Positions 21 through 10,544 of a DNA stretch of 22,112 nt are shown here, piece after piece. Positions within the stretch are counted from its first letter, which is position 1. Each line of letters starts with the position of its first letter. This DNA comes from a virus, in IMG/VR virus record IMGVR_UViG_3300037862_000053, positions 1-22,112 of that record, one strand, 5' to 3'. Under the pieces are notes generated by a model. The model worked only from the letters and a program-made list of their open reading frames with translations. It ran no database searches and was not told the origin of the DNA. A program made the translations under genes and the position numbers.

Positions 21-839
21 GTGCCAACCCGAACCGGGGAAGCGTTAGTGGTTGTTTGGGCTGACCCACAAACAGGCAAGGTTGACCACCGAGGTGGCAC
101 ACCTGAACTGATTCTTAGGGTGCAAGGGAAGCTCGCGAAGCTAGAGACCTACATCAAGACCCAAAAGACCTCAACCGCGTATTTCCTCAACGCCGGGGAC
201 AGTATCGAGGGCTTCGAGAATGTCGAGTCCCAGAGCTTCACCAACGACCTAAGCCTGATGGAGCAGATAGACCTAGAGGCGACCTTTGAGTGGTCATTCC
301 TTAGATTGCTTAGGAAGCACCACAACGATGTCACATCGGCCACAGTCGGCTCTAACCACTGCGCATGGCGCAAGGGTAAGAACTCACTGGGAAGACCTAG
401 CGATGACTGGGGCTTATTCATACAACGCCAGCACCAAAAGCTGAACGATGAGCTAGGTATGGGCATGAAGTTCGCGGAGCCTGAAACCTATTCAGAGTCT
501 CTAGCCCTAGACATCAACGGCACAATCGTTGGCCTAGTGCATGGACACCAAGCAACATCGGGCAAGTTCTCGGACTTCTGGGCCAAGCAAATCCATGGCG
601 GAGGGGCTTTATCCGCCTGTGATGTCGTTGTTAGCGGTCATTACCATACGCTCTCCATACAGCCCACAGGTCGCAATCCCTACACCGGGAAGTCCAAGTG
701 GCATCTTCAAGCCCCAACGATGGATAACGGATCATCGTGGTGGGCCAACAAAGCGGGCGGGTCAGATTCCGATCCGGGCTTATTAGTATTCACGATTGGG
801 AATGAAGGGCTAAACCTTCAATCACTAGCCGTGTTGTAA
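21..839 (+). CDS. Calcineurin-like metallophosphoesterase, probably 5'-partial
   Basis: A metal-dependent phosphoesterase of the calcineurin-like superfamily; the phage substrate is not known. The metal-binding blocks can be read in order: an ADPQTGK block near residue 14 (the family's D-x-H, here D-x-Q as in phage relatives), GDSIEG near 59, GSNHC near 110 (the GNHE block), VHGHQ near 173 and GHYHT near 206. The listed start is a GTG at 21, but the frame is open to the left edge with no stop and no clear ribosome site. Phage relatives often carry an N-terminal DNA-binding extension, so the true start probably lies outside the window. It is the first gene upstream of the packaging module and reads in the same direction. 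The superfamily is clear; the biological role (nuclease or phosphatase) is not. Confidence 0.85.
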   Translation: MPTRTGEALVVVWADPQTGKVDHRGGTPELILRVQGKLAKLETYIKTQKTSTAYFLNAGDSIEGFENVESQSFTNDLSLMEQIDLEATFEWSFLRLLRKHHNDVTSATVGSNHCAWRKGKNSLGRPSDDWGLFIQRQHQKLNDELGMGMKFAEPETYSESLALDINGTIVGLVHGHQATSGKFSDFWAKQIHGGGALSACDVVVSGHYHTLSIQPTGRNPYTGKSKWHLQAPTMDNGSSWWANKAGGSDSDPGLLVFTIGNEGLNLQSLAVL

Positions 840-840
840 C

Positions 841-932
841 TTGTCGCGGCGTAACCCCTTCACTTGGTTTGGGGCCAATCACCAATATCCCCACCTCCTG
901 GGTAGATGTTCACTCGGTGAGCGCCGCGACAA
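841..932 (+). ncRNA. Candidate structured RNA or DNA dyad, cloverleaf-like
   Basis: An 11-bp perfect inverted repeat, TTGTCGCGGCG at 841-851 and CGCCGCGACAA at 922-932, encloses 70 nt. Inside it three short hairpins can be drawn in order: TTGG/CCAA (864-867 with 875-878, 7-nt loop), CCCA/TGGG (890-893 with 899-902) and TTCAC/GTGAG (909-913 with 917-921). Together they make a four-way, cloverleaf-like fold. The GGGG loop of the first hairpin (871-874) could also pair with CCCC at 855-858 or 889-892. It has no T-loop or CCA-type tRNA features and no U-tract. It starts two bases after a stop codon and ends 20 nt before the next likely start. It could be an RNA element, a leader or a DNA packaging site. 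The pairing was done by eye with no covariation test. Confidence 0.3.
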
Positions 933-951
933 CCCAACCAAGAAGGGCGAC

Positions 952-1125
952 ATGATCAAGACACGCAAAGAGCAAGTAGATGACCTAGTAGCCATGTCAG
1001 ATGAGCTAGGACAGGCCAGAGAAGCCCTCAGAATCATGAACGCACTCACTGCCGAAGTTCCAGCAGGTGAGATGTTCCAGATGCGCTGGGATCGACTCAT
1101 CGACATCATCAACAAACCCAAGTAA
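952..1125 (+). CDS. Small hypothetical protein (57 aa)
   Basis: I do not recognise this protein. The reading frame is open back to a TTG at 841, but that start lies inside the strong inverted repeat and has no ribosome site. The ATG at 952 follows AGAAGGGCGAC, a usable purine-rich site, so I chose it. The predicted product is acidic to neutral and mostly helical (EQVDDLVAMSDELGQAREAL, then a short second helix containing MRWDRLIDIINK), with no cysteines, signal peptide or membrane segment. It is followed after 8 nt by another small ORF and then the HNH gene, so the three are probably co-transcribed. Such short helical proteins are common upstream of phage terminases; no function can be assigned. 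Confidence 0.5.
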   Translation: MIKTRKEQVDDLVAMSDELGQAREALRIMNALTAEVPAGEMFQMRWDRLIDIINKPK

Positions 1126-1133
1126 AGGACAAG

Positions 1134-1232
1134 ATGGCAAAGATGGCCTCCCTCTACGCTGAGCTCAACTCAATACCAGAGGATGAGCCAGTCCCTCCAG
1201 TATTCCTCTATGGCGAGACAAGCGATGACTAG
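1134..1232 (+). CDS. Very small ORF (32 aa) translationally coupled to HNH
   Basis: An ATG at 1134 is preceded by AAAGGA at the right distance, one of the better ribosome sites in this part of the window. It opens a 32-codon frame beginning MAKMASLYAELNS and ending GETSDD, rich in Asp, Glu and Pro. Its TAG stop (1230-1232) overlaps the ATG at 1225 that I take as the HNH start, an arrangement typical of translational coupling. No family is recognisable. It could be a real acidic mini-protein, or a leader peptide whose translation feeds ribosomes to the HNH start, which has only a weak site of its own. Confidence 0.45.
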   Translation: MAKMASLYAELNSIPEDEPVPPVFLYGETSDD

Positions 1233-1578
1233 CCCCTCCCATGGTTGGAGCAGTAGCAACAGACGCCCCGACCCCAAGGGTTGGTCACAAACTCGCAAGC
1301 AGGTCATAGCCAGAGCATTAGGTGTCTGTCAGGACATCGCAACACCAACCGACTCCAACCCTCACCCTCAACGTTGCTACTTAGAGGGGACAGAGGTGGA
1401 CCACATCGTCAACCTAGCCCAAGGTGGTTCAGAGGCACTAGAGAACCTCCAACTCTTATGCTCATGGCATCACAAGCGCAAGACAGCCAAAGAAGCAGCA
1501 TCAAAGCGCATCAGTAGGACAGAGCGACACCCTGGCGAAAGACATCCTGGGCTGATAGATGTCACCCCTGACCGGTAG
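1225..1578 (+). CDS. HNH homing-type endonuclease
   Basis: A small HNH nuclease, probably a packaging accessory. The HNH core is visible: EVDHIVNLAQGG (first His with its acidic partner), ENLQLLC (the Asn) and CSWHHKRKT (the last His), with cysteines at the start (GVCQ), middle (RCYLEG) and end (LLCSWH) that would hold a structural zinc. The N-terminus contains the NRRPDPKGW element common in actinophage HNH proteins, and the C-terminus is basic. Three in-frame ATGs exist (1183, 1210, 1225). I chose 1225 because it overlaps the stop of the small ORF upstream and the region before it is Ser/Gln-rich and unconserved in look; the product is then 117 aa. In HK97-type phages an HNH protein beside the terminase stimulates cos cleavage (family knowledge); that role here is inferred from position. 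Confidence 0.88.
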   Translation: MTSPSHGWSSSNRRPDPKGWSQTRKQVIARALGVCQDIATPTDSNPHPQRCYLEGTEVDHIVNLAQGGSEALENLQLLCSWHHKRKTAKEAASKRISRTERHPGERHPGLIDVTPDR

Positions 1579-7425: not shown

Positions 7426-8232
7426 ATGGCAATTAATAATTTCATCCCGGAAATCTGGAGCGCCGGAGTAACTCAAAGCTTCATCTCCAACCAGATTGTT
7501 ATCCCAACCCTCAACACTCAGTATCAGGGCGATGCGACACGTGGCAACACTGTCCACATCATCAACGCAACCACCCCAACCATCGTCGACTACGCAGCCG
7601 CTGGGCGCTCAATCACCGCTGAGGCGTTGAACGACACCGAGGTTCAGCTTCTTTTGAACCAGGAAAAAGCCTTCTCTGTCAACGTCGATGATGTTGATAA
7701 GGTCCAGGCCGCTGGAACCTTCAACGCTTGGACTGACGCAGCTGGAAAAGCTTTGGCAGAAGACGCAGAAGAATACCTACTGGCTCAGATGCTTGCTGGC
7801 GCAACTAACGGAAACTCAGGGGCTGTGGTTGTTGACACCGCCGAGGAAGCTAAAACCGCAGTTCGCACCATTCGCACCTTGATGGCAACTGGCAAAGTCC
7901 CATCGGCTAACCGCTTCCTAGTGGTCACTCCGGACTTTGCAGATTTGCTAATCCAGGGTCTTTCTGATGTTGCCGCCGCTGGCGCAACTGACGAACTTCG
8001 CAACGGACAGATCACAAGGCTCTATGGCCTAAATGTTCTTGAGTCACCACTTTTGGGTAGCGATGTTTCGGCTATTGGTTACCACGCTGACACCGTGGCA
8101 TTTGTGAACCAAATTCAGTCACTTGAGGCCCTGCGTAACCAGACCAAGTTCTCGGACATTGTTCGCGGCTTGAACGTCTACGGCGCAAAGGTCATTAAGT
8201 CCGAAGCCGTTATCAAATACGTCTCAGCCTAA
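7426..8232 (+). CDS. Major capsid protein, HK97 fold (P22-coat-like)
   Basis: The shell subunit (268 aa). It starts MAINNFIPEIWSAGVTQSFI and contains GDATRGNTVHIINATTPTIVDYA, then ALNDTEVQLLLNQEKAFSVNVDDVDKVQA, matching the E-loop and backbone-helix region of P22/Gp5-type coat proteins in actinophages. RFLVVTPDFADLLIQG and GQITRLYGLNVLESPLL form the A-domain, and the C-terminus is a beta strand (YGAKVIKSEAVIKYV). It has no N-terminal delta domain and is short for the family, consistent with the separate scaffold just upstream. The ribosome site GAAGGA lies before the ATG. A very strong hairpin follows 11 nt after the stop, which may raise mRNA stability or damp downstream transcription. Confidence 0.95.
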   Translation: MAINNFIPEIWSAGVTQSFISNQIVIPTLNTQYQGDATRGNTVHIINATTPTIVDYAAAGRSITAEALNDTEVQLLLNQEKAFSVNVDDVDKVQAAGTFNAWTDAAGKALAEDAEEYLLAQMLAGATNGNSGAVVVDTAEEAKTAVRTIRTLMATGKVPSANRFLVVTPDFADLLIQGLSDVAAAGATDELRNGQITRLYGLNVLESPLLGSDVSAIGYHADTVAFVNQIQSLEALRNQTKFSDIVRGLNVYGAKVIKSEAVIKYVSA

Positions 8233-8243
8233 AAAGGCTAACC

Positions 8244-8277
8244 GCTAAGGGGTCGGAGTTCGCTCTGGCCCCTTAGC
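8244..8277 (+). terminator. 15-bp hairpin with UUCG tetraloop after capsid gene
   Basis: GCTAAGGGGTCGGAG (8244-8258) pairs over its whole length, with two G-U wobbles, with CTCTGGCCCCTTAGC read from 8263 to 8277. It closes on a UUCG tetraloop (8259-8262). There is no U-tract after it (CATACCCC follows), so it is more likely an mRNA-stabilising hairpin or partial attenuator than a complete terminator. Confidence 0.7.
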
Positions 8278-8305
8278 CATACCCCGAGATTTGAGAGAGG
8301 TCTAA

Positions 8306-10449: not shown

Positions 10450-10544
10450 CTGACAGTTTTCATGCGGCGGCTGTCAGAGATCACGGCAGAGAGGGGAGCA
10501 ATCCCCTCTCTGTTTAGCCGCATAACTAAATAACAGAAAGCCGC
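10450..10544 (+). promoter_or_regulatory. Structured intergenic RNA with alternative pairings, RBS overlap
   Basis: CTGACAG (10450-10456) pairs with CTGTCAG (10471-10477). The loop between them contains ATGCGGC (10462-10468), exactly complementary to GCCGCAT at 10517-10523. AGCCGC occurs twice downstream (10516-10521 and 10539-10544), and either copy could pair with GCGGCT (10467-10472). The second AGCCGC sits 4 nt before the ATG of the next gene, where a ribosome site would be, and no canonical one is seen. The pairings are by eye. Confidence 0.4.
10487..10512 (+). terminator. 11-bp hairpin with GCAA tetraloop after major tail gene
   Basis: CAGAGAGGGGA (10487-10497) pairs perfectly with TCCCCTCTCTG (10502-10512) around a GCAA tetraloop (10498-10501). 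Only TTTA follows, so termination would be weak. An attenuator or mRNA-stabilising role fits better, as for the hairpin after the capsid gene. Confidence 0.65.

Follow-up and report, generated by a model that had tools for sequence, protein, structure and literature searches.

A candidate structured RNA with a three-way junction conserved behind an exonuclease gene in related phages

Results and Discussion

Identification of the element and its relatives

Directly behind an exonuclease gene, the viral DNA analyzed here (a stretch of 22,112 bases, hereafter the window) carries what sequence comparison identifies as a new candidate structured RNA, outside the Rfam families. We searched IMG/VR with the exonuclease and obtained 21 loci; in four other virus contigs (L001 to L004), the element stands directly behind the same gene. 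The exonuclease of L001 is 99% identical to that of the window, and those of L002, L003, and L004 are about 75–78% identical at the protein level. In all five sequences, 1–7 nt separate the exonuclease stop codon from the element. The letters of the element diverge strongly between the window and L002 to L004, yet the same three-way junction can be folded in each. Compared in this way, the fold is conserved in shape rather than in letters among these related phages. Coordinates are collected in Table 1.

A covariance model scored L001 to L004 at 72–82 bits, scores which are not independent for L002 to L004, as the model was built from these and the window. The sample amounts to five sequences from four distinct lineages, with the window and L001 being near-identical. 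In the source alignment of covariance model R1, the variable P3 loop of L002 to L004 had been shortened, and the full-length sequences were realigned afterwards.

Table 1. Features of the element, its flanking genes in the window, and its homologues
Feature	Position	Strand	Remarks
Exonuclease or metallophosphoesterase-like gene, 5' part beyond the window	21..839	+	PHROG 284 exonuclease, E = 1.6e-47
Whole element, candidate structured RNA of ~92 nt, three-way junction	841..932	+	Fold z, homologues, covariation
P1, 5' strand, pairs with 922-932	841..851	+	Compensatory changes in 6/11 pairs
J1/2, UAA	852..854	+	AA invariant
P2, hairpin CCCC(12-nt loop)GGGG	855..874	+	Arms 855-858/871-874; pair 2 is C-G, G-C, or A-U
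J2/3, CCAA	875..878	+	4-6 nt in relatives, one A invariant
P3, long interrupted arm	879..920	+	P3a, P3b, P3c, internal loop, and bulge
P3a	879-883/916-920	+	100% of cells paired; 3/5 pairs compensatory
P3 internal loop, asymmetric	884 (1 nt) vs 910-915 (6 nt; 5 nt in others)	+	
P3b	885-889/905-909	+	Compensatory changes
P3c	890-892/900-902	+	
P3 apical loop, length variable	893-899	+	
P3 2-nt bulge, UA or UC	903-904	+	
P1, 3' strand	922..932	+	Covariation and inverted repeat
57-aa ORF, no known family	952..1125	+	Not conserved in L002-L004
HNH endonuclease gene	1183..1578	+	PHROG 333; module differs from L001
Homologue in L001	2328-2420		Near-identical to window; sole hit independent of the model
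Homologue in L002	1098-1192		Divergent
Homologue in L003	5819-5921		Divergent
Homologue in L004	5817-5922		Divergent

Covariation supports the fold

The element came to attention through an uninterrupted 11-bp inverted repeat, which is indeed perfect (TTGTCGCGGCG at 841–851 and CGCCGCGACAA at 922–932). The window contains two perfect inverted repeats of at least 11 bp with a loop of up to 120, against a mean of 0.96 in shuffled sequence (0.15 when the loop is restricted to 60–80). Since shuffling yields about one such repeat per window, the repeat by itself is weak evidence. The element has a minimum free energy (MFE) of −40.3 kcal/mol (z = −4.57), and other 92-nt stretches fold with comparable strength. 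The strong evidence is covariation in the relatives, not the repeat alone.

In an alignment of the five sequences fitted to the model, 13 of the 27 pairs changed on both sides with pairing kept, 92% of cells were paired, and 23 cells were double-changed. The covariation score was 0.541, compared with 0.270 after shuffling, and none of 500 shuffles reached it. Sliding the partners by 1–3 columns reduced pairing from 92% to 37–48%. Because this alignment had been fitted to the structure, the count was repeated with the window's own pairs on a MAFFT alignment computed from sequence alone, before a structure had been defined. There, 84% of cells were paired, and 12 pairs and 20 cells were double-changed (4/500 and 0/500 shuffles).

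Covariation of the outer stem, which the preliminary description had proposed as the check for an RNA, was found in P1 and also in P2, P3a, and P3b, with the best support in P1 and P3a. Among the sequences, P1 occurs in the compensated variants GUCGCGGCG/CGCCGCGAC, GCUGCGGCG/CGUCGCAGC, and CCUGCAACG/CGUUACAGG. Pairing-preserving compensatory changes are thus present beyond chance, which is the mark of a conserved structured RNA.

Two side observations concern hairpins elsewhere in the window. The second perfect 11-bp inverted repeat, at 10487–10512 (CAGAGAGGGGA), and a strong hairpin between structural genes at 8230–8280 (GGGGTC...GGCCCC) are both candidates for terminators or processing sites.

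Architecture of the predicted RNA

The region had been described as a cloverleaf of three small hairpins; both the MFE fold and the fold common to the relatives are instead a three-way junction. Nor does the proposed GGGG/CCCC loop pairing exist as a separate interaction, as the CCCC and GGGG in question are P2 itself. P3 has a second CCC/GGG at its tip, and there is no loop–loop pairing apart from the helices. P2 has only 4 bp and is weak in L003. The junction spacers are AA between P1 and P2 and 4–6 nt between P2 and P3. A U852.G921 wobble can form (the pair is U.G in four sequences and C.A in L002), leaving 0 nt between P1 and P3, so these two helices probably stack coaxially.

In the window, the P3 loop (893–899) has the sequence ACCUCCU, which equals, probably by chance, the anti-Shine-Dalgarno core of 16S rRNA. 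The idea that it acts as a ribosomal anti-Shine-Dalgarno mimic was dropped, as L002 to L004 do not conserve the loop.

Strand, coding potential, and termination

Wobble pairs on the plus strand (a P1 pair that is G-C, G-U, or A-U; U-G in P3a; and the junction pair) would read A.C on the opposite strand, and they favor a plus-strand transcript as the functional RNA.

The stretch is non-coding, as had been claimed. It starts one base past the exonuclease stop codon (837–839) and ends 19 bases before the ATG at 952, and the window and the divergent L002, L003, and L004 share no reading frame across the element. In line with this, a conserved protein start at the TTG at 841 was not found. Readthrough or frameshifting was considered and rejected, as in the window a second stop closes the exonuclease frame within five codons, and the relatives have no frame in common. 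The statement that the element is not a terminator also holds, since 841–932 contains no terminator-like site and CCCAACC comes after the element. No promoter-like site was found directly upstream of it in the window.

Gene neighborhood and module border

The window and L001 are 99% identical through the exonuclease gene, the element, and the 57-aa ORF, and they are unrelated from about position 1110, roughly 180 bases past the element. Their HNH genes differ, and their large terminase (TerL) proteins are only 26% identical over part of their length. From this comparison, position ~1110 is a sharp module-exchange border, and the element belongs to its exonuclease side, as the identity ends beyond the element. 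The next feature downstream of the element varies: the 57-aa ORF in the window and L001, a 38-aa ORF in L002, an unrelated 44-aa ORF in L003, and genes for tRNA-Met and tRNA-Trp in L004. A link to HNH/terminase modules, as suggested in the preliminary description, is therefore not supported; the exonuclease is the constant upstream neighbor, and the downstream genes vary.

We also used relatives to place the genome end. Contigs carrying TerL relatives repeatedly start about 500–600 nt before TerL, 20–30 nt before a GTTCAAAAC-like motif. Clustered contig ends between HNH and the small terminase gene (TerS) were seen at seven TerL loci (L050, L052, L053, L059, L070, L074, and L122) and at four HNH loci (L003, L345, L347, and L349), in the latter about 30–60 nt past HNH. 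The GTTCAAAAC-like motif is also present past the HNH gene in L002 and L004. These patterns point to a probable cos-type end between HNH and TerS in this phage group, a placement that comes from the contig ends of relatives. The distance from the element to the likely end is about 575 nt in L002 and at most 656 nt, at the contig end, in L003.

Search for further copies

Several searches for additional copies gave no credible one. Four degenerate-pattern scans of IMG/VR gave, among the matches listed, only the known copies and chance matches. Relatives of TerL, the whole records of 50 relatives, and relatives of HNH contained no copy beyond L001 to L004. Exonuclease relatives of at most 64% identity (L005, L036, and others), scanned with model R2 with filters off, lacked the element. 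Across 400 Microbacteriaceae genomes, the best E-value was 0.0014 per genome, which is the chance level over 400 genomes. On present evidence, the element appears confined to one phage clade, related to prophages of Leifsonia-type actinobacteria.

Individual matches were examined and rejected. In L200, a match to R1 (21.7 bits) runs from the last part of a long phage gene into the beginning of the following one, and a match in L327 lacks P3 and begins where a phage-like gene ends. A run of mycobacteriophage-like pattern matches looks like coding DNA, and the one that was tested (L025) scored nothing. At L031:4176–4260 (minus strand), there is a perfect P3-like hairpin with no P1, which at 9.7 bits is at noise level and was not counted. 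Four tRNA genes in a row directly follow this hairpin (CCCCGGTTGCTCCCC...GGGTCGAGCGACCGGGG), and a related terminase lies downstream.

Comparison with known RNAs

No Rfam 15 family matched over the element at the gathering cut-off, either in the window or in L001 to L004. Relaxing the threshold did not change this for window positions 780–1000 (E up to 5, riboswitch families included) or for the stretches around the element from L002 to L004 (E up to 1). Together with the covariation, the absence of a family match supports the preliminary description's proposal of a new structured RNA, even as the other parts of its interpretation, the HNH/terminase linkage and the DNA packaging site, are respectively unsupported and disfavored.

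The element had also been judged not to be a tRNA, correctly so: ARAGORN found 0 genes in the window, and tRNA model RF00005 gave no match at the gathering cut-off or at E up to 5. Of the original observation, the repeat and the non-coding, non-tRNA, and non-terminator character stand, and the cloverleaf with three small hairpins does not. The likeness to phage tRNA genes is one of setting: the candidate RNA too is small and structured, and it occupies an interval that holds tRNA genes in relatives. A tRNA is a four-way cloverleaf with a T arm (GGUUCRA) and a CCA end, whereas the element is a three-way junction without either. The stable RNAs C and D of phage T4 are small structured phage RNAs to which the element can be likened in the same way.

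Three further phage RNAs were compared. The phi29 pRNA (RF00044) is a three-way junction whose structure is kept while its sequence is poorly conserved (PMC5340915), and it resembles the element as a phage three-way-junction RNA near packaging genes with a structure that outlasts sequence. However, the pRNA model gave no match to the window, the element is about half as long, its companion gene is an exonuclease rather than packaging genes, and the phages here have a terminase and a cos-like end instead of a phi29-like motor. The HK022 putRNA, a phage RNA of ~70 nt, acts alone on RNA polymerase and consists of two stem-loops in a V shape without an outer closing stem (PMC9378689). The likeness lies in size (~70–90 nt), in transcription within a phage operon, which is predicted for the element, and in two arms, but each of the five sequences has P1 as a closing stem. 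Staphylococcal cabRNA demonstrates that host defense can sense structured phage RNAs, and it arises near terminase genes; it lies inside the terS-terL coding sequence and its fold is not conserved (PMC10686824), in contrast to the intergenic element with its conserved fold. We claim no homology to cabRNA, and we place the element in none of the compared families.

Possible functions

The sequence comparison establishes the conserved fold, the strand bias, the fixed place behind the exonuclease gene, and the independence from downstream genes. The reading that we tentatively prefer, and to which we give slightly less than an even chance, is a new phage structured RNA that is carried in the exonuclease operon transcript and is released or persists as a small RNA. 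Positions 841–932 would be transcribed within a rightward polycistronic message containing the exonuclease gene, and the RNA would fold co-transcriptionally after the ribosome leaves the exonuclease stop codon. The folded RNA would then persist or be trimmed out as a discrete small RNA of ~90 nt, resembling the tRNAs of other group members in the same interval. P2 and the invariant unpaired bases (J1/2 AA, J2/3 A, and the UA/UC bulge) could form the surface for a phage or host protein or RNA partner. The constant upstream gene may reflect shared descent alone, or it may reflect action in cis on the exonuclease mRNA. This latter role, in which the element works in place behind the stop codon as a 3'-UTR or intercistronic element, ranks just below the released small RNA and is nearly as likely. 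It could block 3'-5' exonucleases, separate the early from the late message as a processing site, or serve as a put-like antitermination or pausing RNA for the polymerase moving into the late genes. The invariably short distance to the stop codon fits such a role, as do the position close to where the exonuclease module meets the late module, the latter being swapped as a block, and the precedent of HK022 putRNA, which needs no partner to act on RNA polymerase (PMC9378689). The V-shaped put fold is different, however, and two tRNA genes (L004) or another hairpin (L002) stand between the element and the late genes. Moreover, exonuclease relatives of at most 64% identity, L005 and L036 among them, manage without the element, so it is dispensable for the exonuclease gene in general.

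The remaining explanations are considerably weaker. A leader that controls translation of the next gene, either riboswitch-like or protein-binding, is improbable. In the window and L003, a start codon with a purine-rich stretch resembling a ribosome-binding site does follow the end of the structure at 15–20 nt, but the downstream genes are unrelated, L004 has tRNA genes in place of an ORF, no alternative terminator or sequestering hairpin was seen, and no riboswitch family matched the window at E up to 5. We consider a DNA site, meaning a cos or pac packaging site or a cruciform recognized as DNA, to be very improbable. Inverted repeats do occur in packaging sites, and the element is located close to the right-hand end of the linear genome. 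Judged from the contig ends of relatives, though, it does not occupy the physical genome end, as a cos or pac site would; with the likely end 0.57–0.66 kb downstream (L002 and L003), these relatives probably have their packaging site elsewhere. TerL of the L002 type also occurs in many phages without the element, and divergent sequence with kept pairing and G-U or U-G pairs is the signature of an RNA read from one strand, not of a conserved DNA word. The least probable reading is a chance inverted repeat or functionless relic. A repeat of 11 bp is expected about once per window, but the pairing survives the double changes, exceeds all 500 shuffles, and holds on the structure-blind alignment, so that at the level of structure conservation, this reading is already refuted by the sequence comparison.

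A more specific version of the released small RNA seems rather unlikely to us. In it, these sequences would be the first representatives of a new class of trans-acting RNA encoded by phages. Such an RNA would be a three-way junction with coaxial stacking that is set free from the transcript past the exonuclease gene and binds a host or phage machine. If this is true, RNA polymerase or the ribosome could be the target, for example, as could the exonuclease itself or a defense sensor. To our knowledge, few small RNAs have been described from phages of uncultured actinobacteria. The covariation support, defined architecture, and fixed gene address of the candidate make it testable by RNA-seq and deletion.

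Other RNAs and signals in the same interval

Toward the right genome end, this phage group has an RNA-rich interval, in which relatives carry tRNAs and tmRNA-like fragments. tRNA genes lie in or near the corresponding interval in L004, L031, L042, L336, L337, and L345, and L039 has a tRNA-like match. Upstream of HNH, in the interval that holds tRNAs in relatives, L344 (2575–2656, plus strand) and L345 (1976–2058, plus strand) encode RNAs of 82–83 nt in which the two ends of the tmRNA model are matched (acceptor, GG-UUCG-C, and T arm). Nearly the whole mRNA/pseudoknot part is missing, leaving only the tRNA-like domain, and the absence of this middle part keeps the matches (E = 1e-14 and 3.5e-13) below the family cut-off.

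Two further shared sequences were noted. L344:2480–2562 and L345:1678–1752 have in common GGTGRCTCCACG...GCGTGTTGAGGGGTCGGTTGGYGGG within an inverted repeat, beside a −10 box resembling TATATG; the RNA cluster may begin there with a further structured RNA. Past the exonuclease in L005 (~5880), L036 (~6040), and L336 (~1090, minus strand), a common TTYGCGACACGCCGA lies just upstream of TTGACA/TTGGAA promoter-like sequences and may be an operator of a late or RNA promoter.
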